A DNA stretch of 64,000 nt from an uncultured Pseudomonadota bacterium. Its GTDB lineage: Bacteria > Myxococcota_A > UBA796 > GCA-2862545. Each line of letters begins with the position of its first letter. Within the stretch, counting starts at the first letter, position 1. This document shows, one piece after another, positions 1,328 to 10,802 of the stretch. Position numbers and translations under genes: made by a program. The notes under the pieces were generated by a model. It searched no databases. It saw nothing but the letters and a program-made list of their open reading frames with translations, and was not told the DNA's origin. Where the stretch lies: the NCBI GenBank assembly GCA_913061235.1, contig CAJXTB010000001.1, forward strand, positions 1-64,000, given 5' to 3'.

Positions 1328-2120
1328 GCGTCCTATCCTCGACCTCGACACTCCGACTTGCAAGCGTCTCCAAGGAGTCTTTTGCGACATCGACGATACG
1401 CTGACCCACGAAGGACGTCTCGTACCCGCGGCGTTCCTCGCCCTTCAGCACCTGCAAGATGCCGGTCTTAAGGTGGTCCCCATCACCGGACGGCCAGGAG
1501 GATGGGTGGACCAGATCGCTCGCATCTGGCCTGTAGATGGCGTTGTGGGCGAGAACGGAGGCCTTTGGTTTTACCACCACAAGGGTTCGCTCCATCGGTC
1601 ATACCTTCAGACTGAAACCGTGCGTGCAGACAACAAGCATCGATTGACGGAACTCGCAGGCCACATCCTTCGGATGGTGCCCGGGTGTGCCCTCGCCAGT
1701 GACCAGTCGTATAGGGACTTGGACCTCGCCATCGACTTTTGCGAGGACGTTCCTGCTCTAGATGACGCAGCCATCAACCGCATCGTGGCTTTGTTTGAGG
1801 AAGCAGGATGCACAGCCAAAGTCAGCAGCATTCACGTGAACGGCTGGTTCGGCGAGTTCGACAAGCTCACTGGCTGCGAGCGCTTCCTAAAGGAGCGGTA
1901 CGGCACCTCTCTCGATACCGCCACAGAGGACTGGGCCTACTTCGGTGACTCTGCAAACGATGAGCCCATGTTCAAGGCATTTCCTATCAGCGTCGGGGTC
2001 GCCAATGTGCGTGAGTTCCTCCCACGCATGACGTCGCACCCCTCATTTGTGACGCAAGGCGAAGGGGGCCACGGGTTTGCCGAGGCCATCGCCCACATCC
2101 TAGCCAATCGCGCCCGGTAG
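1326..2120 (+). CDS. HAD-IIB family phosphatase (Cof/sugar-phosphatase-like)
   Basis: This 264-residue protein is a HAD-superfamily phosphohydrolase of the IIB (Cof-type cap) class. Motif I is DIDDT at residues 21-25, with the nucleophile Asp21 and general acid Asp23. A Thr-Gly-Arg (ITGRPGG) follows as motif II, then the class-typical GENGG, and late in the protein GDSANDEPMF as the Mg-binding motif IV. The family removes phosphate from sugar phosphates or similar small metabolites in the cytoplasm; mannosyl-3-phosphoglycerate and trehalose-6-phosphate phosphatases are relatives, but the substrate cannot be read here. The ATG at 1326 precedes the conserved core by 20 residues and has no clear ribosome site. 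Its 3' end overlaps the convergent dehydrogenase by 21 bp. Confidence 0.8.
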   Translation: MRPILDLDTPTCKRLQGVFCDIDDTLTHEGRLVPAAFLALQHLQDAGLKVVPITGRPGGWVDQIARIWPVDGVVGENGGLWFYHHKGSLHRSYLQTETVRADNKHRLTELAGHILRMVPGCALASDQSYRDLDLAIDFCEDVPALDDAAINRIVALFEEAGCTAKVSSIHVNGWFGEFDKLTGCERFLKERYGTSLDTATEDWAYFGDSANDEPMFKAFPISVGVANVREFLPRMTSHPSFVTQGEGGHGFAEAIAHILANRAR

Positions 2121-3044
2121 GCGTTCGCCTACCTGCCAGGCCGTGAGGTTGGCCGCAACCTCACGGGCAACACGCATTCCAAGATCGTGCGTGTACCCAG
2201 CGGAATGCGGCGTCAGAATCACGCCCGAGTGCCGGCTGTTCAGTGCCAAGTCAGGATGAGGCTCAGCGGGAAAGACATCACTCGCTAGCCCTCTAAGGCG
2301 TCCCGATTCAACCATCTGGACAGCCGCCGCAAGGTCCAGCAAAGGACCGCGAGCGGTGTTCACCACAACCGCATGCGACGGCAGCTGCTCCAGTCGCTGC
2401 CTGTCCAGAATCCCCACACTAGAGCCGGTCAAGGAGCAGTGCAGGGTGACGAAATCAGCGTGTGGGAGCGAATCATCTAAGTCGGCTTTTGTGATGCCCG
2501 CTGGAGACTGATTGGGGTCGACACCGAGAACAGACGCGCCAAGCACCGTCAGAATCTGAGCGACGCGTTGGCCTATGACTCCCAACCCGACCACAACAAC
2601 CGTTGCTCCAGACAGTCCACGGGGAGCCAGCGCTTCCAGCTCACCCCGCGCCCAACGCCCTTGCTGAGCAGCCACTCCCAGGGCGGGTACCTGTCTCATT
2701 AGAGACGTCCCCAACGCCAAGGCCTGTTCGACAACGGCATCCCGCCGCGCTTCGGGGCAACGTGCGACGACGACTCCCCTACTGCGGCAAGCCTGCACAT
2801 CAATGTGGTCGTACCCACTCGTCGTGGTCAACACGAGCTCACCGGAAAACCGGTCGAGGACAGCCCCATCGACGCAGACCTTGCTCGGTACCACCAGAGC
2901 CCGAATGCCGGCCATATCTCCTGGAGAAGACCGTTCCTCTCGAAGAGACCAAGTCAGCCCCAGTCGATGAGAGGCGTCCCGCTCAAGCTTGAGAGCCGCA
3001 TCCGTTTCATAAGCGGTTCTCCCCCACCGTAGTACATCGGTCAT
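2100..3044 (-). CDS. D-2-hydroxyacid dehydrogenase, NAD-dependent
   Basis: The 314-residue product belongs to the D-isomer-specific 2-hydroxyacid dehydrogenases, which interconvert 2-keto acids and D-2-hydroxy acids using NAD(P)H. The central Rossmann segment carries GLGVIG. Downstream are the catalytic Arg in NTARGPL, a Glu in the DVFPAEPHP segment, and the catalytic His in TPHSAGYT. The length is normal for the family. Phosphoglycerate dehydrogenase (serine synthesis) and glyoxylate/hydroxypyruvate reductase share this layout, and no C-terminal ACT domain is present, so the substrate stays open. It is divergent from radA, with 96 bp between the start codons. Confidence 0.85.
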   Translation of the reverse strand: MTDVLRWGRTAYETDAALKLERDASHRLGLTWSLREERSSPGDMAGIRALVVPSKVCVDGAVLDRFSGELVLTTTSGYDHIDVQACRSRGVVVARCPEARRDAVVEQALALGTSLMRQVPALGVAAQQGRWARGELEALAPRGLSGATVVVVGLGVIGQRVAQILTVLGASVLGVDPNQSPAGITKADLDDSLPHADFVTLHCSLTGSSVGILDRQRLEQLPSHAVVVNTARGPLLDLAAAVQMVESGRLRGLASDVFPAEPHPDLALNSRHSGVILTPHSAGYTHDLGMRVAREVAANLTAWQVGERLPGAIG

Positions 3045-3140
3045 TCGTCCCCCAACTGGAAATCAAACGGGCGCAGTCCCCGAAGCGGACAGCTTTTGGC
3101 ACATCGTGCGGATAGCCCGGACAGCCGAACGAGGACGACG

Positions 3141-4487
3141 ATGGCCAAGACGCGTACCCAATTCATCTGTGACCAGTGCAGCTACACCTCACCCAAGTGG
3201 CATGGAAAGTGCCCCGAATGCGGCTCATGGAGCTCCATGACCGAATCCGTCGCGCTGAAGTCTGTCGCCTCCAAGCTTGGTGGGACCGTCAAGCCAGTAC
3301 GACTTGCAGATGTCGATACGTCTGCCGGTGAACTGCGGGTTAAAACAGGGCTCAATGAGCTCGACAACGTCTTGGGCGGAGGACTTGTCGCCGGCTCTTT
3401 GGTGCTCATCGGCGGTGACCCTGGTGTGGGCAAATCCACGCTGTTGCTGATGGCTCTCGACCGCTTCGCTAGCAAAGGGGTGGACGCGCTGTATGTGAGT
3501 GGAGAGGAAAGCGTTCGGCAAGTACACCTGCGTGCTGGCCGTCTAGGAGTGACGTCGCAAAACCTTCTTCTGCTGTCAGAGACTCGCTGGGACGTCATCG
3601 AGCAAGCGTGCCGCTTCTCAAAGCCACGAGTCGTCGTCATCGACTCCGTTCAGACAATGAGCGCGCCTGATGTGTCGTCAGTACCCGGGTCTGTCTCTCA
3701 GGTCCGCGAGGTTGCCCACCGGGCAATGATCTTCGCGAAGGAGACCGGAACAGCAGTCTTCTTGGTCGGTCATGTGACAAAGAGCGGAGAGATTGCCGGT
3801 CCCAAAGTCCTGGAACACTTCGTGGACACCGTGCTGTACTTCGAAGGCGACGGCCGCTCCTCACTGCGAGTACTGCGCAGCGTGAAGAACCGATTCGGTC
3901 CAGCAGGCGAGCTGGGAATGTTCGAGATGGCAGAGCAGGGTCTGGTTGAAGTGCCTGATGCATCAGCCCGTCTCTTAGAGGAGCGGGTCAGGAACGCACC
4001 AGGCACGGCTGTTGTTGCTACGCTCGAGGGAAGCCGTCCTCTCCTTGCAGAGGTTCAAGCACTTGTCGGTCGGTCCACCCCCGCGACCCCCGCCAGAACC
4101 TGTGTCGGTGTGGACAGAGGCCGCGTGCTGATGCTCGCCGCCGTTGCAGAGAAGGCCGGTCTGTCACTGCACGACCGGGACATCTTCGTGAACGCCGCCG
4201 GAGGTGTGCGACTGCATGAACCCGCAGCGGACCTTGCGATCGTCATGGCTATCGCTAGCTCGTTGGTCGAGGTCGCCTTGGACCCGGACACGCTCTTTCT
4301 TGGAGAGCTGGGGCTCGTTGGCGAAGTCCGCAGCATCCCTCATCCCATTCAACGGCTCAAGGAAGCCGCCAGACACGGCTTCCGGCGCGCTCTTGTTCCT
4401 CCGTCTGCTGCCCGAGACGCTCCACCTGGTATTGAGTGCATTCCCGTCAAGACGTTGCGAGACGCCCTAGGTCACCTAGGAGCGTAG
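3141..4487 (+). CDS. radA: DNA repair protein RadA (Sms)
   Basis: The 448-residue protein has the full RadA layout. An N-terminal zinc finger has Cys10, Cys13, Cys24 and Cys27. A RecA-like ATPase follows with Walker A GGDPGVGKST at residues 91-100 and the RadA-specific KNRFG motif, then a Lon-protease-like C-terminal domain. RadA is a hexameric, RecA-like helicase that drives branch migration during homologous recombination and repair. I chose the ATG at 3141, which directly precedes the zinc finger and has GAGGA upstream. An in-frame ATG at 3096 would add 15 residues with no family match. It stands apart from its neighbours. Confidence 0.96.
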   Translation: MAKTRTQFICDQCSYTSPKWHGKCPECGSWSSMTESVALKSVASKLGGTVKPVRLADVDTSAGELRVKTGLNELDNVLGGGLVAGSLVLIGGDPGVGKSTLLLMALDRFASKGVDALYVSGEESVRQVHLRAGRLGVTSQNLLLLSETRWDVIEQACRFSKPRVVVIDSVQTMSAPDVSSVPGSVSQVREVAHRAMIFAKETGTAVFLVGHVTKSGEIAGPKVLEHFVDTVLYFEGDGRSSLRVLRSVKNRFGPAGELGMFEMAEQGLVEVPDASARLLEERVRNAPGTAVVATLEGSRPLLAEVQALVGRSTPATPARTCVGVDRGRVLMLAAVAEKAGLSLHDRDIFVNAAGGVRLHEPAADLAIVMAIASSLVEVALDPDTLFLGELGLVGEVRSIPHPIQRLKEAARHGFRRALVPPSAARDAPPGIECIPVKTLRDALGHLGA

Positions 4488-4571: not shown

Positions 4572-5411
4572 ATGCCCCACAAAGCACTCATCGCTGTTCT
4601 CGCTTCACTGACCGTGTCCTCGGCTTGGGCCGCACCGGCGTTGGTGACCACAACGCGGGGAAGTGTTGTACTCGTCCGACAAGGTGAGTCCACCCCTGCA
4701 CCAGCCCCCCCCTTCATTCTAGAAGACGGCGCCTCGCTGACTCTTGGTGATGAAGCTCTGGTCGTTGTGCTCTTCGAGGGCTCCGCAACGCAGCTGCACG
4801 GTCCCCGCGAAGTCGGACAAGATGACTTGAAGACCCGCGAAGCGGCCCCAGCGACACGGACCTCCACTCTAGAGACCCTTCTGACGGCACGCACTCAGAC
4901 GTCCCGTGCTGGCGCATCCCGTGCCGGCGGTACACAGATGCACCTCACACGCCCAGTTCCTGGCGCTCAAGTTGTAGCGATTCCGTACATCGCGTGGCGC
5001 TGTGACACCTGTCCGACCACGCAAGTCTCCTTGTATGACCTTCGCAATGACGTAGATGTCTGGACCGGAGAAGGCACATCTCTAATAGCGTACGACGGTC
5101 CTACTCTGGCCCCTGGAGCCTACTTGCTTGCCCTTGGAGACCGTGACCACGCGTTCACCGTTGTTGGGGCAGAGGACAGCCAACGCCTAGCAAGTCTTGT
5201 TGAAGCCGCTTCCGACGCCTCGGACGAGCTTGTTGGAGTCGGCGCAGACATTGCAGCACGAACCAGTATTGTTGCAGCGGTCTACCTACAGTCTGGATTC
5301 CCAAGTGAAGCGCTGTACACCATCGATCAAGCCCTCATCCAACACCCGGATGACCCGGCACTCCAGGCTCTGCGCGCGTCGTTCGAGCTTCGGGCTGGCC
5401 TGCAACCGTGA
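4572..5411 (+). CDS. Secreted FecR-like protein with C-terminal TPR-like tail
   Basis: The 279-residue product begins with a clean signal peptide (MPHKALIAVLASLTVSSAWA), so it should act in the periplasm. The next part (ALVTTTRGSVVLVRQGE, then a GASLTLGDEALVVVLF segment) resembles the beta-rich FecR domain, which in other bacteria binds or senses envelope signals. The last 60 residues are helical and TPR-like (SGFPSEALYTIDQALIQHPDDPALQALRA is the region, about residues 235-263). The ATG at 4572 has GGAG upstream. Its TGA overlaps the GTG start of the CHASE2 gene by 4 bp, so the two are very likely translated together. The FecR assignment is by pattern only. A C8 run lies inside the gene near 4705. 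Confidence 0.6.
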   Translation: MPHKALIAVLASLTVSSAWAAPALVTTTRGSVVLVRQGESTPAPAPPFILEDGASLTLGDEALVVVLFEGSATQLHGPREVGQDDLKTREAAPATRTSTLETLLTARTQTSRAGASRAGGTQMHLTRPVPGAQVVAIPYIAWRCDTCPTTQVSLYDLRNDVDVWTGEGTSLIAYDGPTLAPGAYLLALGDRDHAFTVVGAEDSQRLASLVEAASDASDELVGVGADIAARTSIVAAVYLQSGFPSEALYTIDQALIQHPDDPALQALRASFELRAGLQP

Positions 5412-6937
5412 GCACAGGGTCCGAGACCGGTCTGCCAGAGGACGAGCCCACCCAAGAGGTTGAACCCCCCGTCGAACCCACCTCCACCGACTCGACACAA
5501 GCCACCCCGATTCCGCATGCCGCTGCAGCTGAGGTAGGCAATCGTCAGAGCGACCCCTGGGGATTCCTCGTTCGAGCGCTGGCGTACGAGACTCTCGTCG
5601 TGGTTGTCACAGCTGCCAGCGTAGCCGCATTGCTATTTCTGGCCTCGCTACTTCTGTTTCGTGGCCAACTTCAAGATGTCTACCTACGCCTTCGAGGTCC
5701 GGCCCCCATCAGCGCCGAAGTCTCGCTTGTGACCGTGGGACCAGAGGCACTGTACCTCTTCAATCCGGCAGACCCACATCCGAACGAGACACCACGGGAA
5801 CTGCTGGCCGAGCTCGTGACCTTCTTGGATGCCGCCGGTGCGAGTGTCGTCGTTCTCGACTTCTTGATGGACCAACCCGCCACCGGCGACGACCTGCTCG
5901 CCGCAGCCTCTCTCACGCACGGGTCCGTCATTGCCGCAGAACGATTCGAGATCACGGAACCTGCAAGCGGACGGGTGTTCACACCAGGCATCCCACCTGT
6001 GCTCGAGTCGGCCATGGGGTCCGGCTTTGCGAACTTTCAAGAGGAACCCAGCACCTGGCTTGGCAGTGAGTTGTTGGTCCGACGTCTCCCCCTGTTGCGG
6101 ACAACGGACCGTGCCCATCTCTCGGGGCCCTGGCCGCTGAACCAGGTTGGTGCCAAACAGGACATCGACGAAATCGTACCAGCCCTGTCGCTAGCCGCGG
6201 CATGGCGACATCGAGCACTTCAACGCGACCCTAGCGCCAAACAAGAATCGCTCACCCGACTCTTGCAGGACCAATGCACACCAGCTCCGCTTCAGTGCGA
6301 GGTACGCATGGCGGACCTGGGCCTGCCCGAGGTACCCCTGGACTTGTCCGAGCCTCACGACATCAACTTCAGAGGTCCAGAGGGTGGAGACGGCCTTGTG
6401 ACAGTGGATGCCGCTCGAATCCTTCGGGTTCTCGCTGGCACGGCATTGCTCAAGCAGCTTGGGCAGAACGGTCCTGTTGACGTGCCCGAAGACCTACGCG
6501 CGCAGCTCGAGGGTCGTGTGGTGGTGGTAGGTCGCGTAGACGTTCACTCGGACGGCACAAGTGACCGCTTCGCCACGCCATACTCACTTCCCCTTCAGGC
6601 AAACGCCGACATGAGCGGTCCCCGCATCCACGCCCATGCCATCGACACTCTGTTGAGTGGCCGCCACATCCGGCACAGCGGTGGGTGGCTCGCGTGGCTA
6701 CTGGCACTGGGAGTCAGCGGCGGCGTGCTCGTCTCCTACACTCGGCTGACGGACACCAAACATGGCGCTGTCTGGCTTGCAATCACAGCCGGAGTGTTGA
6801 CCCTCGGTTTCGTGATCTTCCGAATCTCAGATGGGTTCGTCGTGGACCTCGGTCCAGTCGTCGCAGCCTGTCTGGTTCCTACCGTCATCCTGCACCTTCG
6901 CGGATGGGTTCGCGATCAGGCCGGACTGCCGCGATAG
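5408..6937 (+). CDS. CHASE2-domain membrane protein
   Basis: This 509-residue protein has an acidic, Pro/Thr-rich cytoplasmic N terminus of about 50 residues and one transmembrane helix at about 60-85. A large extracytoplasmic CHASE2-type domain follows, with the hallmark stretch of helix plus AGASVVVLDFLMDQP. Three closely spaced transmembrane helices at the C terminus start near residue 430 (WLAWLLALGVSGGVLVSY is the first). CHASE2 is a sensory domain usually attached to kinases, cyclases or phosphodiesterases. Here no output domain follows, so the signal must pass to a partner. It starts with GTG inside the stop of the FecR-like gene and is 36 bp upstream of the CsgG-like gene. Confidence 0.75.
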   Translation: MSTGSETGLPEDEPTQEVEPPVEPTSTDSTQATPIPHAAAAEVGNRQSDPWGFLVRALAYETLVVVVTAASVAALLFLASLLLFRGQLQDVYLRLRGPAPISAEVSLVTVGPEALYLFNPADPHPNETPRELLAELVTFLDAAGASVVVLDFLMDQPATGDDLLAAASLTHGSVIAAERFEITEPASGRVFTPGIPPVLESAMGSGFANFQEEPSTWLGSELLVRRLPLLRTTDRAHLSGPWPLNQVGAKQDIDEIVPALSLAAAWRHRALQRDPSAKQESLTRLLQDQCTPAPLQCEVRMADLGLPEVPLDLSEPHDINFRGPEGGDGLVTVDAARILRVLAGTALLKQLGQNGPVDVPEDLRAQLEGRVVVVGRVDVHSDGTSDRFATPYSLPLQANADMSGPRIHAHAIDTLLSGRHIRHSGGWLAWLLALGVSGGVLVSYTRLTDTKHGAVWLAITAGVLTLGFVIFRISDGFVVDLGPVVAACLVPTVILHLRGWVRDQAGLPR

Positions 6938-6973
6938 TCTAGGGTGTTGTCCGCTGACCGACTGGGAGACTTT

Positions 6974-7681
6974 GTGTTTCGAGCCTTACTGTTCTGCTTG
7001 CTAGCCATCGCTCCCCGACTGTCCCAGGCGGCTGACGGAGCCGTCGCGGTACTGTACTTCGACAATCAGGGGAACGCCGACCTCGAGCCGCTCAAGGTTG
7101 GCCTTGCCCAAATGCTCATCACGGACCTCCAACAAGCTGGCGACATTCCGGTTGTAGAACGCGCCCGAATTCAGGCGGTGTTGGACGAGCTTGAGCTCGG
7201 TCACAACGGGATGGCTGACCCCACGACTGCCGCTCGCATTGGCAAGCTGCTCGGAGCCGAGTGGCTGGTGTTGGGCTCCTACTTCGACCTCATGGGAACA
7301 CTCCGCGTCGACACTCGCGTGGTTCGGGTCGAGACGGGAGAAATCGTACACACCGCCGGACAAGCCAAGCCGCGAGAGCGCTTTCAAGCGATTGAAGATG
7401 CCTTGGCGACCGAACTCATTGCAGGTCTACGCGCACTCCACGAACAGCCCAACTCGGTGCAGCCTGAGCAGACACGCTCTGGAGACGGCGCCTCGACCGC
7501 CCCCACAGACGTCGTCACACCCGATGCGGACGCCATGGCAGCCGCAGTGCATTTTTCAGAGGGTCTCATTGCACTAGACCAGCACGACTCTGCCCGTGCA
7601 CGAGATGCCTTCACCGCATCGGTCGCAGCAGACCCAACCCTGACGGATGCCCAAACCCAGCTCGCCGCACTTGAGCTGTAG
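6974..7681 (+). CDS. CsgG/FlgO-like secreted protein with TPR tail
   Basis: The 235-residue product has a signal peptide ending near LSQAADG. It is followed by VAVLYFDNQGN, a conserved helix (MLITDLQQAGDIPVVERARI) and GAEWLVLGSYF, the pattern shared by CsgG (curli secretion pore), FlgO and TolB-like N-terminal domains. No lipobox Cys is present. The last 45 residues look like one TPR (SEGLIALDQHDSARARDAF). I chose the GTG at 6974, which has GGGAG about 6 bp upstream and gives a normal signal peptide; an in-frame GTG lies at 6944. It sits 3 bp before the CHAT gene, so the two are probably cotranslated. A link to outer-membrane assembly or sensing is inference. Confidence 0.65.
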   Translation: MFRALLFCLLAIAPRLSQAADGAVAVLYFDNQGNADLEPLKVGLAQMLITDLQQAGDIPVVERARIQAVLDELELGHNGMADPTTAARIGKLLGAEWLVLGSYFDLMGTLRVDTRVVRVETGEIVHTAGQAKPRERFQAIEDALATELIAGLRALHEQPNSVQPEQTRSGDGASTAPTDVVTPDADAMAAAVHFSEGLIALDQHDSARARDAFTASVAADPTLTDAQTQLAALEL

Positions 7682-7684
7682 GTC

Positions 7685-10189
7685 GTGCGCCGCGTAGCCA
7701 TGGCGCTTGTGTTGCTACTGACCGCTGCCACTCCGGCCGAGGACATGGCGAGCGGTGATGCGGCTTGGGACAGCCATGATGTCGCAGCGGCCATGACGCA
7801 GTGGTCGCTCGCCTTGCAGTCAGCTCGCGATGCCGAAGATTCAGAGCTCACCTTTGAGCTTCGTCTGCGCCTAGCCGCTGCACATCGGGAAGCGAACAAC
7901 TTGGACACCGCTAGTGCCCTACTCGACGCGGCAACGCTGACAGCGGACACAGACATTAAGCGAGCTCGGGTGTTCCTCGCCCGCGGCCTCGCTCAACGCC
8001 AGAGTGGCGACCTTGTACAAGCTATCCGCAGCATGACGACCGCGTTCGGTCTTGCCAAAGCAGGCGAGAACGCTCCGTTGGTCTCCATCATTGCCCACAA
8101 TGTCGGCGCGGCGCGGTTCGAGTCTGGCGACGTTGACGGCGCCCTACGGGCCTTTCAAACTTCACTCAAAATCAGTGACCCGGCTGGCGACGGCAACGGC
8201 GGGTACAGCACCTATGTCGAGCTGGCCAGAGTGCTCCTGCGACGCGGAACACTGGCTCAATCCCACACCGCTGCGACTCACGCGCTCGGAGGAGACGACG
8301 CCACTATCGCTGAAGCACGCGCGGTACTCGGGCGTATTGCCTTGGCCAACGGAGACCGTGCCAGCGCCACAGATCACTTATTGGCGGCCCTCACCACGGC
8401 ACGCGCACGCGCAGATGTTCCGCTACAGGCCTCCGTGCTGTCCTCCCTTGCCGGCATCGCGCTGGCAGATGGGAATCGGGCCACTGCACGTCAACAGTGG
8501 CAAGCAGCCGAGACGGCACTTCAAGAGACACGACAACCTCAAGCCGCTCGCAGCGTTGCCTTGGACCGTGCCAGCGCAATGGCTGACATCCCAGCCCTAC
8601 GTGACCTGTTGTCGAAGGCCATTGCTGACCACGACATGACCGCAGAAGCACGCGCGAGCCTGTACATCGCCGAGCACGACCGTTCCATGCCCCTCACGCT
8701 TCGCGCCGCCGAGCTTGCAGACCGCCTGTCCCTGATGGACGTCGGATGGAGAGCGGCGCACCTACGTGGCGAACTGCTCGTAGCGACGGGCTCACCAACA
8801 CAGGCCATCCCTTTCTTCGACGACGCCCTGTCTCGCGTGCAACGCCTGCGCTCCGCCGGGGCGGCAACGGATGCCGACCAGGACACCGGCCGGACCTCTC
8901 TCGCATCTGCACTCGTCGCCGCCGACAACCCGACGGCGGCGCTTGGTGTCGTTCTTCACACTCCGGATGAAGACCCCGCGGCTCACCTTGTGACCCAGAG
9001 CGCTGTGCTGTCCCAGCGACTCGCCACGGAGACCGACGCCGCACAACGAACACGCCTGGCCGGCATGCGGGTCGCCTTCGCCGAGGAGCTAGACCGGCTG
9101 CGCGCAAGCACCCCTGACCTGGACACCCGCACCCGAATCGCACCCGAGGAGCTGGAAGCGCTGCAGGCGGACTTGCCGACCGGCACGCTGGTGGTCGCAC
9201 CCATTCTCCTAGACGACGACGTGGTCATACTGACCCTGGCTCGTTCGGGTGTGACCGTGACACGTGTTCCCAGTGCAGGCGTGTCCCGGCGTATTGGGCG
9301 ACTCATGCGCGCTCTCAGAGCTGGCCTCATTGATGACGACGGGTGGGCGCAACAGCAAGGCGACACGCTCGGTGAGCTGCTTCTGACCCCCATCGCCAAC
9401 GAGCTCACGGGCATGGACACCCTCGTATTCGCCGTCAACGGTCCCTTCAGACAGCTTCCATTGTCCATTCTACGCTTTAATGGAGCTCCGATCAGCGAAA
9501 CCGCGAGTGTAGTAGCTGTCACCCACAGTGCCTCACTGATTACACGTGGACGCCGCAGCCAGGTCGCCGGCTCGGACCTGCTTCTCGTCGGCAACCCAGA
9601 CGGTACCCTGCCCGGTGCTTCTCGAGAGGTCGCACAGATTCACTCTCGCTTTCCCGAGTCCCGCGTCCTCATTGAGTCCGATGCCACTTTGCCTGCCGTG
9701 CGCGAAGCATCGCAGGGCCATCGCATTCTTCACCTCGCCACGCACGGCCGCATTGATCCCGAGGTTCCCGAGCGCTCCCACCTCGTCATGGCCGGCAACA
9801 CTCCCCTCACCTACAGAGAAATCCCAGGACTGGCTCCCTGGCTCACCCAGACCGACATCGTGGTTCTCTCGGCCTGTGAGTCGGGTGTGCCCGTCACCGC
9901 AACAGGCACAGGTGACGATGGTCGACTGGTCATCTCGATCGATGGTCTAGCGTCCCAGTTCAGGCGTGCCGGCGTAGATACGCTCGTGGCCAGCCTATGG
10001 AAAGTGGACGACGAAGCCACAACCGCCTTGATGGTTGCCCTGTACGCTGAGTTGGCCGAAGGAGCCGATATTCACAAGGCTCTCGCTTCTGCGCAGGCGA
10101 CGGTGCGCAACCAGCCACAATGGGAACATCCCTACTATTGGGCCGCATTCACCGTGGTCGGGGATTGGCGGACGGGCACTCTTCCGTGA
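7685..10189 (+). CDS. Secreted TPR-CHAT caspase-like protease
   Basis: The 834-residue protein opens with a signal-peptide-like segment (MRRVAMALVLLLTAATPAED). About 450 residues of TPR-type helical repeats follow, and a CHAT domain fills roughly the last 330. CHAT is a caspase-fold peptidase domain. The expected catalytic pair is visible as His687 in HLATHG and Cys731 in LSACESG, and the usual LWKVDDEAT segment and PYYWAAFTVVGDW end follow. Known CHAT proteases are activated by partner binding through their TPR part and cut specific targets. Export would put this one in the periplasm, which is unusual. It starts with GTG 3 bp after the CsgG-like gene. Both catalytic residues are present, so activity is plausible; the substrate is unknown. 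Confidence 0.85.
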   Translation: MRRVAMALVLLLTAATPAEDMASGDAAWDSHDVAAAMTQWSLALQSARDAEDSELTFELRLRLAAAHREANNLDTASALLDAATLTADTDIKRARVFLARGLAQRQSGDLVQAIRSMTTAFGLAKAGENAPLVSIIAHNVGAARFESGDVDGALRAFQTSLKISDPAGDGNGGYSTYVELARVLLRRGTLAQSHTAATHALGGDDATIAEARAVLGRIALANGDRASATDHLLAALTTARARADVPLQASVLSSLAGIALADGNRATARQQWQAAETALQETRQPQAARSVALDRASAMADIPALRDLLSKAIADHDMTAEARASLYIAEHDRSMPLTLRAAELADRLSLMDVGWRAAHLRGELLVATGSPTQAIPFFDDALSRVQRLRSAGAATDADQDTGRTSLASALVAADNPTAALGVVLHTPDEDPAAHLVTQSAVLSQRLATETDAAQRTRLAGMRVAFAEELDRLRASTPDLDTRTRIAPEELEALQADLPTGTLVVAPILLDDDVVILTLARSGVTVTRVPSAGVSRRIGRLMRALRAGLIDDDGWAQQQGDTLGELLLTPIANELTGMDTLVFAVNGPFRQLPLSILRFNGAPISETASVVAVTHSASLITRGRRSQVAGSDLLLVGNPDGTLPGASREVAQIHSRFPESRVLIESDATLPAVREASQGHRILHLATHGRIDPEVPERSHLVMAGNTPLTYREIPGLAPWLTQTDIVVLSACESGVPVTATGTGDDGRLVISIDGLASQFRRAGVDTLVASLWKVDDEATTALMVALYAELAEGADIHKALASAQATVRNQPQWEHPYYWAAFTVVGDWRTGTLP

Positions 10190-10220
10190 AATTGTTCGGA
10201 GAGGATCCGACACCGAGGGC

Positions 10221-10802
10221 ATGACACCAACGACCCGGCGCCCACTGCTACTCATCGACGAACACCAAGCGACCACTCGCTGCATCGAGCGGGCTATCGA
10301 TGGAATGGCTGAGGTCGTGCGCTGCCGCTTGTCCATGGCCCGCGCCTACCTGGCCCACGACAGCTATGCGGCCATCCTGCTCGCCATACCCGACGAGGGC
10401 TGGCTCTCTGTGGCACCGCTAGTCAGTGACCTGGCCAATGAGGGCTCCACGGTGGTCTTCTGTGCAGACGAGAGTGTCAGCGTTGCGCTCAATGTCGTCC
10501 GGTGGGGAGGCCAAGATGCGCTGGCTGGACGTGAACTGGTGGGAGCGCGCATACGACGAGTGGTCAGCTGTGCGATTGTCCGCGGCGATGAGCGCCACCT
10601 ACTGCGTGTCCGAGCCCGCACCGAGAAGCGGGCCGCCGTGCGAATCGTCGCCGCCGTGATTCGAGACGCCCTACAACCTGCAATGACCACATTGTCCCGA
10701 GCGCTGGAGCACCCGGACCGGCAAGACCGAGCAAACCGAGAAGCGCTGGGTGCACTTCGGGAAGTGATGCTCGACCTCGACGAAGCGGGCCTCGCTATCT
10801 AG
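10221..10802 (+). CDS. Degenerate receiver-like protein, hypothetical
   Basis: The 193-residue product starts like a response-regulator receiver (RRPLLLIDEHQ at residues 6-16) and shows the alternating strand/helix pattern. The segment where the phospho-acceptor Asp should sit reads ILLAIPDEG, and no Asp occupies the end of that strand. The C-terminal 60 residues are helical (AAVRIVAAVIRDALQPAMT and following), possibly a dimerisation stretch. It looks like a pseudo-receiver or a signalling adaptor in the cytoplasm. It follows the CHAT gene by 31 bp and probably ends that operon. Its stop codon overlaps the stop of the convergent LOG gene in the palindrome CTAG. Confidence 0.5.
   Translation: MTPTTRRPLLLIDEHQATTRCIERAIDGMAEVVRCRLSMARAYLAHDSYAAILLAIPDEGWLSVAPLVSDLANEGSTVVFCADESVSVALNVVRWGGQDALAGRELVGARIRRVVSCAIVRGDERHLLRVRARTEKRAAVRIVAAVIRDALQPAMTTLSRALEHPDRQDRANREALGALREVMLDLDEAGLAI

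Follow-up and report, generated by a model that had tools for sequence, protein, structure and literature searches.

An output-less CHASE2 protein encoded with a predicted exported TPR-CHAT protease: a putative proteolytic signalling module at the bacterial envelope

Introduction

The caspase relatives of bacteria are familiar mainly as effectors that act in the cytoplasm, in defence, death or development. Among the described systems closest to the locus reported here, Csx29 of type III-E CRISPR (Craspase; PMC9729208) likewise joins TPRs to a CHAT domain with a His/Cys dyad, but it is RNA-gated and partnered with a CRISPR effector; the same authors point out that the genes for CHAT substrates commonly lie in the vicinity. 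Anabaena HetF (PMC8406250) shares with the present protein a membrane-associated CHAT domain and TPRs, HetF having one transmembrane (TM) segment, but its role is in the divisome and heterocysts and no operon with CHASE2, FecR and CsgG has been reported for it. A Trichodesmium metacaspase-CHASE2 fusion (PMC3501461, PMC2853523) also couples a caspase-fold protease to a CHASE2 receptor, but does so in one polypeptide whose protease faces the cytoplasm.

On the receptor side, the Burkholderia BiofilmReg operon (PMC5192318) resembles the present locus in having a gene for an exported protein (a FecR-domain protein there, a FecR-like one here) beside a CHASE2 receptor gene. It consists, however, of a response regulator (a real one), LysM-FecR, a CHASE2-histidine kinase and DUF4136, without CHAT or CsgG, and no BiofilmReg-type histidine kinase or response regulator was found in the block studied here. 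MtxA of magnetotactic bacteria (PMC4439547; PDB 4Z29) carries a signal peptide plus Ig and TPR domains, and a CHASE2-cyclase gene comes after its own. It thus matches the present FecR-like protein in being exported, in its Ig-like part and TPR C-terminus and in the adjacent CHASE2 gene; unlike here, its CHASE2 partner has an adenylate cyclase, and no protease has been reported with the pair.

The locus examined here is a block of five ORFs in the window (the whole stretch of DNA analysed, 64,000 nt). Four of its genes are tentatively read, with somewhat less than an even chance of being right, as one envelope module in which CHASE2 and a FecR/MtxA-like protein would gate a predicted exported CHAT protease. 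At the sequence level the anatomy of this predicted module (the order of the genes, the export signals, the complete dyad, the absence of an output domain and the recurrence) is well supported.

Results

Organisation of the locus

All five ORFs lie on the same (+) strand and pass a codon-usage test as coding, the fifth included. The start of the CHASE2 gene overlaps the end of the FecR-like gene by 4 bp (-4), followed by gaps of 36 bp to the CsgG-like gene, 3 bp to the CHAT gene and 31 bp to the fifth ORF; recomputed, these positions and spacings agree with those of the original prediction. The features are:

4572..5411, + strand: FecR-like/MtxA-type predicted exported protein, 279 aa (ORF; orthologues at 33-43%)
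5408..6937, + strand: CHASE2 protein without output domain, 509 aa (Pfam PF05226, 2.6e-29; hydropathy)
6974..7681, + strand: CsgG-like predicted exported protein with C-terminal TPR, 235 aa (PF03783, 9.9e-14)
7685..10189, + strand: TPR-CHAT protein, predicted exported, 834 aa (PF12770, 8.3e-53, plus TPRs; Pfam)
9743..9745, + strand: codon for the catalytic histidine, His687 (HLATHG), unchanged across 8 aligned orthologues
9875..9877, + strand: codon for the catalytic cysteine, Cys731 (LSACES), unchanged across 8 aligned orthologues
10221..10802, + strand: accessory ORF, 193 aa, outside the conserved unit (coding by codon usage; no export signal)

No consensus promoters or terminators were detected above chance. 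Immediately upstream of the unit (window 2100-4487) are radA and a gene resembling those of 2-hydroxyacid dehydrogenases; both are also its neighbours in L022 and L026, so the operon's location is inherited within the family.

A single operon had been predicted for all five genes. This stands for the FecR-like, CHASE2, CsgG-like and CHAT genes, whose order is kept in three families, but not for the fifth, which has no believable homologue among 57 relatives and so cannot be counted as part of the block. Candidate homologues in two genomes (G001, G048) were rejected as weak matches in antisense-looking frames. The ‘pseudo-receiver’ identity proposed for this ORF likewise falls: apart from the missing homologues, there is no Pfam match to Response_reg (receiver) at E<=5, and the single-sequence model (pLDDT 48) is uninformative.

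The FecR-like and CHASE2 proteins

The first protein has a signal peptide, an N-terminal beta domain (23-82), an Ig-like domain (139-197) and TPR helices (200-274). Its AF2 model (pLDDT 76) shows the same three parts, the Ig-like one as a sandwich, and the top Foldseek match in the PDB is MtxA (4z29; E 5e-3, prob 0.99); for the N-domain alone, the alignment is to 5ix9, a domain that serves in anchoring at the cell surface (Z 9.6, 73 residues, 2.5 A). A PDB sequence search with the alignment of this protein gave nothing useful. Its description as a FecR-like exported protein was upheld for export, a signal-like N-terminus being present in every sequence checked (lenient heuristic), but less so for the name: Pfam FecR (PF04773) gave no match at E<=1 for the window protein and 8 orthologues, and a score of 0.007 was reached in a remote Latescibacterota relative (L111). 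The FecR label stands on remote profile similarity and comparison by eye only. A position next to CHASE2 is shared by the orthologues. Judging from the model layout and the 4z29 match, which give an Ig-like part and TPR C-terminus in a protein encoded beside CHASE2, this protein is better called MtxA-type. Two cysteines of the Ig-like part, Cys144 and Cys147 (CxxC; CxxxC in some relatives), are invariant and perhaps form a disulfide or metal site.

The CHASE2 protein comprises a hydrophobic segment (51-88), the CHASE2 domain (73-438), a hydrophobic block (424-501) and a short tail. Following the 1+3 scheme of the CHASE2 literature, segment 51-88 was read as TM1 and block 424-501 as three C-terminal TMs, so that a domain with flanking TM segments, as in CHASE2 receptors, is present (PF05226 plus hydropathy). 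Because the tail after the TM block is short, the protein is taken to lack a kinase, cyclase or GGDEF output, and Pfam detects CHASE2 only. Every orthologue checked likewise stops after the last membrane helices, bearing out the predicted receptor without output. In the window genome this is the sole CHASE2 protein.

The CsgG-like and TPR-CHAT proteins

The PF03783 match of the third protein spans profile positions 10-97 of 210 only, and an LpoB profile scores 8e-4, under its cut-off. Both the membrane-barrel half and the lipobox that mark the CsgG curli channel are missing. The CsgG/FlgO-like label given to it thus survives through the PF03783 match, but only for the soluble half of CsgG (a CsgG/LpoB-like core). 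Orthologues, at 44-57%, align from 6974, making an in-frame GTG at 6944 a less likely start. A signal-like N-terminus was seen in 14/14 CsgG-like proteins (lenient heuristic); that of the window protein has no lipobox cysteine.

The fourth protein consists of a signal peptide (MRRVAMALVLLLTAATPA), a TPR region and CHAT (558-827), and has full-length orthologues at 35-41%. Domain and His/Cys dyad are both present, as in CHAT peptidases (PF12770), confirming the predicted CHAT protein with both catalytic residues. Its proposed export signal is also retained, with signal-like N-termini in 12/13 orthologues; a twin-arginine (Tat) motif of the RRRDF/NRRSF type occurs on four CHATs and one CsgG-like protein. 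Across the CHAT, CsgG-like and FecR-like proteins, an export signal was called in 35/36 sequences by a heuristic so lenient that 59/118 other genes also pass; the export evidence therefore draws its weight from the agreement among orthologues and from the Tat motifs.

Known CRISPR or defence systems do not readily account for the unit: CHAT scores 22.9 bits with the Csx29 profile (NCBIfam NF041237; cut-off 300), and the PADLOC defence profiles give a weak match to BovA only (E 0.0023). A plasmid search returned many CHATs, none spanning 80% of the query; searching with CHASE2 gave three plasmids only.

Conservation within the order and class

A CHAT orthologue was found in 15 of 58 related genomes searched, from three families of one uncultured order. 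FecR-like, CHASE2, CsgG-like and CHAT genes follow in identical order in ten genomes, the window included (the others being G011, G020, G007, G028, G035, G038, G053, G040 and the MAG G301, contig L052); the G007 copy has broken frames and the G040 copy leaves the contig inside CHAT. Three further copies are split or partial: that of G014, truncated by the end of its contig, keeps CHASE2, CsgG and CHAT, and those of G052 and G054 are spread over contigs. A CHASE2 protein is encoded in 15/15 genomes with a CHAT orthologue versus 8/43 without one (Fisher p 1.6e-8, uncorrected for kinship).

CsgG-CHAT loci without adjoining FecR/CHASE2 occur in G005, in G009 and also in two further families of the class; some of them encode an additional CsgG-like protein that is longer. 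CsgG-CHAT is accordingly the most persistent pair, and could work either without a CHASE2/FecR receptor or with one encoded elsewhere, which weighs against the gated module. This persistence, the relationship of the CsgG core to LpoB and the TPRs detected by Pfam in three of the four proteins would also suit a constitutive complex for envelope assembly or quality control, in which CHASE2 holds a CsgG/LpoB-like, TPR and FecR-like scaffold at the inner membrane while clients are trimmed or degraded by CHAT without any sensing. We consider this improbable, since CHASE2 and FecR-type domains serve signal transduction elsewhere and the FecR-CHASE2 pair recurs across many contexts; FecR-like genes adjoin ordinary CHASE2 genes in many of the genomes studied.

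Directly upstream of the operon in G020 (L021:2485-5976) lie genes for a TPR protein like the long CsgG-like proteins and for a Pkinase+Guanylate_cyc protein.

Distant links between CHASE2 and caspase-fold proteases

Among 67 distant CHAT loci picked regardless of context, FecR and CHASE2 lie directly beside CHAT at three (unclassified MAG L061; Nitrospinota L084 and L086), against a chance expectation of ~0.1 by our own estimate, which assumes a few CHASE2 genes per genome. The arrangement is rare in Nitrospinota, at 3/77 genomes. At least three of the genes thus recur together in distant genomes, as FecR+CHASE2+CHAT, which had been proposed as a check on the system. All three CHATs have signal or lipoprotein N-termini, of the lipoprotein type in Nitrospinota, and all three CHASE2 proteins keep an adenylate-cyclase domain.

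These cyclases bring in the main rival to a gated exported protease, namely that CHAT-TPR and the FecR-like protein are inputs, which bind or cut an envelope signal that CHASE2 relays to a separate cytoplasmic enzyme. The G020 kinase-cyclase protein encoded just upstream of the FecR-like gene would be such an enzyme, and a precedent exists in S. meliloti, whose CHASE2 cyclases respond to a protein via the outer-membrane protein NsrA (PMC13001267). However, a kinase-cyclase adjoins the operon in that one genome only and the CHASE2 proteins of this clade stop soon after the last TM, so that the input reading is judged unlikely here.

In Vibrio aquaticus (G390, L289:2810-19761), an output-less CHASE2 protein of 451 aa is encoded between two predicted exported C14 caspases (681 and 1383 aa), one of them with WD40-like repeats, and the cluster continues with a predicted exported ankyrin/TPR-CHAT protein of 2970 aa. 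This arrangement is independent of the unit in the present order. It is possible, though on balance somewhat unlikely, that the two represent one class of proteolytic signalling at the envelope, where CHASE2 receptors that lost their cytoplasmic output act in the periplasm by controlling exported caspase-fold proteases, and that this class arose at least twice (in this order with CHAT, and in Vibrio aquaticus with C14 caspases and a CHAT). Giant ORFs (~2600-2980 aa) with a terminal CHAT are widespread in Desulfobacterota, Vibrio, Nitrospinota (many) and Planctomycetota (e.g. L066, L073, L074, L077, L079, L081 and L118). In G639 (L295:11018-16475), a CHASE2-like ORF of 528 aa lies ~2.5 kb from an exported caspase-like ORF, which is preceded by two ORFs resembling, by eye, a sigma/anti-sigma pair.

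Wallbacteria (G300; L231:4-3185, L291:664-5189) encode CHASE2-CHAT and Pkinase-CHASE2-CHAT fusions, one adjoining a separate CHAT gene and one following a FecR-like gene. None of six cyanobacterial CHASE2 proteins tested was fused to CHAT, their outputs being GGDEF, EAL or cyclase. CHAT is on the cytoplasmic side in the Wallbacteria fusions, as is the protease of the Trichodesmium metacaspase-CHASE2 fusion (PMC3501461), which would fit a CHAT protein that is cytoplasmic in the present unit too, its N-terminus being an artefact or an inverted anchor, and that serves as a detached CHASE2 output with a caspase-like effector role, possibly one in defence or cell death. With signal-like N-termini in nearly all orthologues, twin-arginine motifs in four, lipoprotein-type signals on the Nitrospinota CHATs and nothing beyond the weak BovA match from PADLOC, such a location is very unlikely. 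Since distant CHASE2 proteins keep a cyclase and CHAT is on the cytoplasmic side in the Wallbacteria fusions, the ancestral signal flow may have run into the cytoplasm, which tells against the gated module.

Discussion

Our best guess is that the four conserved genes encode a putative proteolytic signalling system at the envelope. In the gated-protease module favoured here, the CHASE2 protein would be an inner-membrane receptor or anchor which, having no cytoplasmic output, would work through its periplasmic domain, where the FecR/MtxA-like protein may bind it. Exported TPR-CHAT would be the effector, its TPR part docking on the receptor or on the CsgG-like TPR protein, itself an adaptor or a client. 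A change in receptor state would then lead the His/Cys site of CHAT to cut a periplasmic protein. We infer the protease activity, its gating by the CHASE2 and FecR-like proteins, and its substrate. As the known substrates of CHAT proteases often come from adjacent genes (PMC9729208), the neighbouring FecR-like or CsgG-like protein is the first-guess substrate.

If correct, this would extend caspase-type proteolysis to the periplasm and mean that CHASE2 has an output of a new kind. Because it recurs in varied arrangements in Nitrospinota, Vibrio and Wallbacteria, the connection of CHASE2 with caspase-fold proteases can be put to the test.

The original prediction knew of no described system of this composition, and none was found in the open-access literature searched, where nothing joins CHASE2, ‘CHAT domain’ and FecR, or ‘CHAT domain’ and CsgG. 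The kinds of component are known; their combination, with the protease outside and the output missing, is new to that literature. In the LapD-LapG system, the membrane receptor LapD, which has cytoplasmic c-di-GMP domains, either retains or releases a periplasmic cysteine protease. By analogy, LapD-LapG offers the nearest logic for a gated periplasmic CHAT: the protein families are unrelated, but in both LapD-LapG and the proposed module a membrane receptor would preside over a periplasmic protease.
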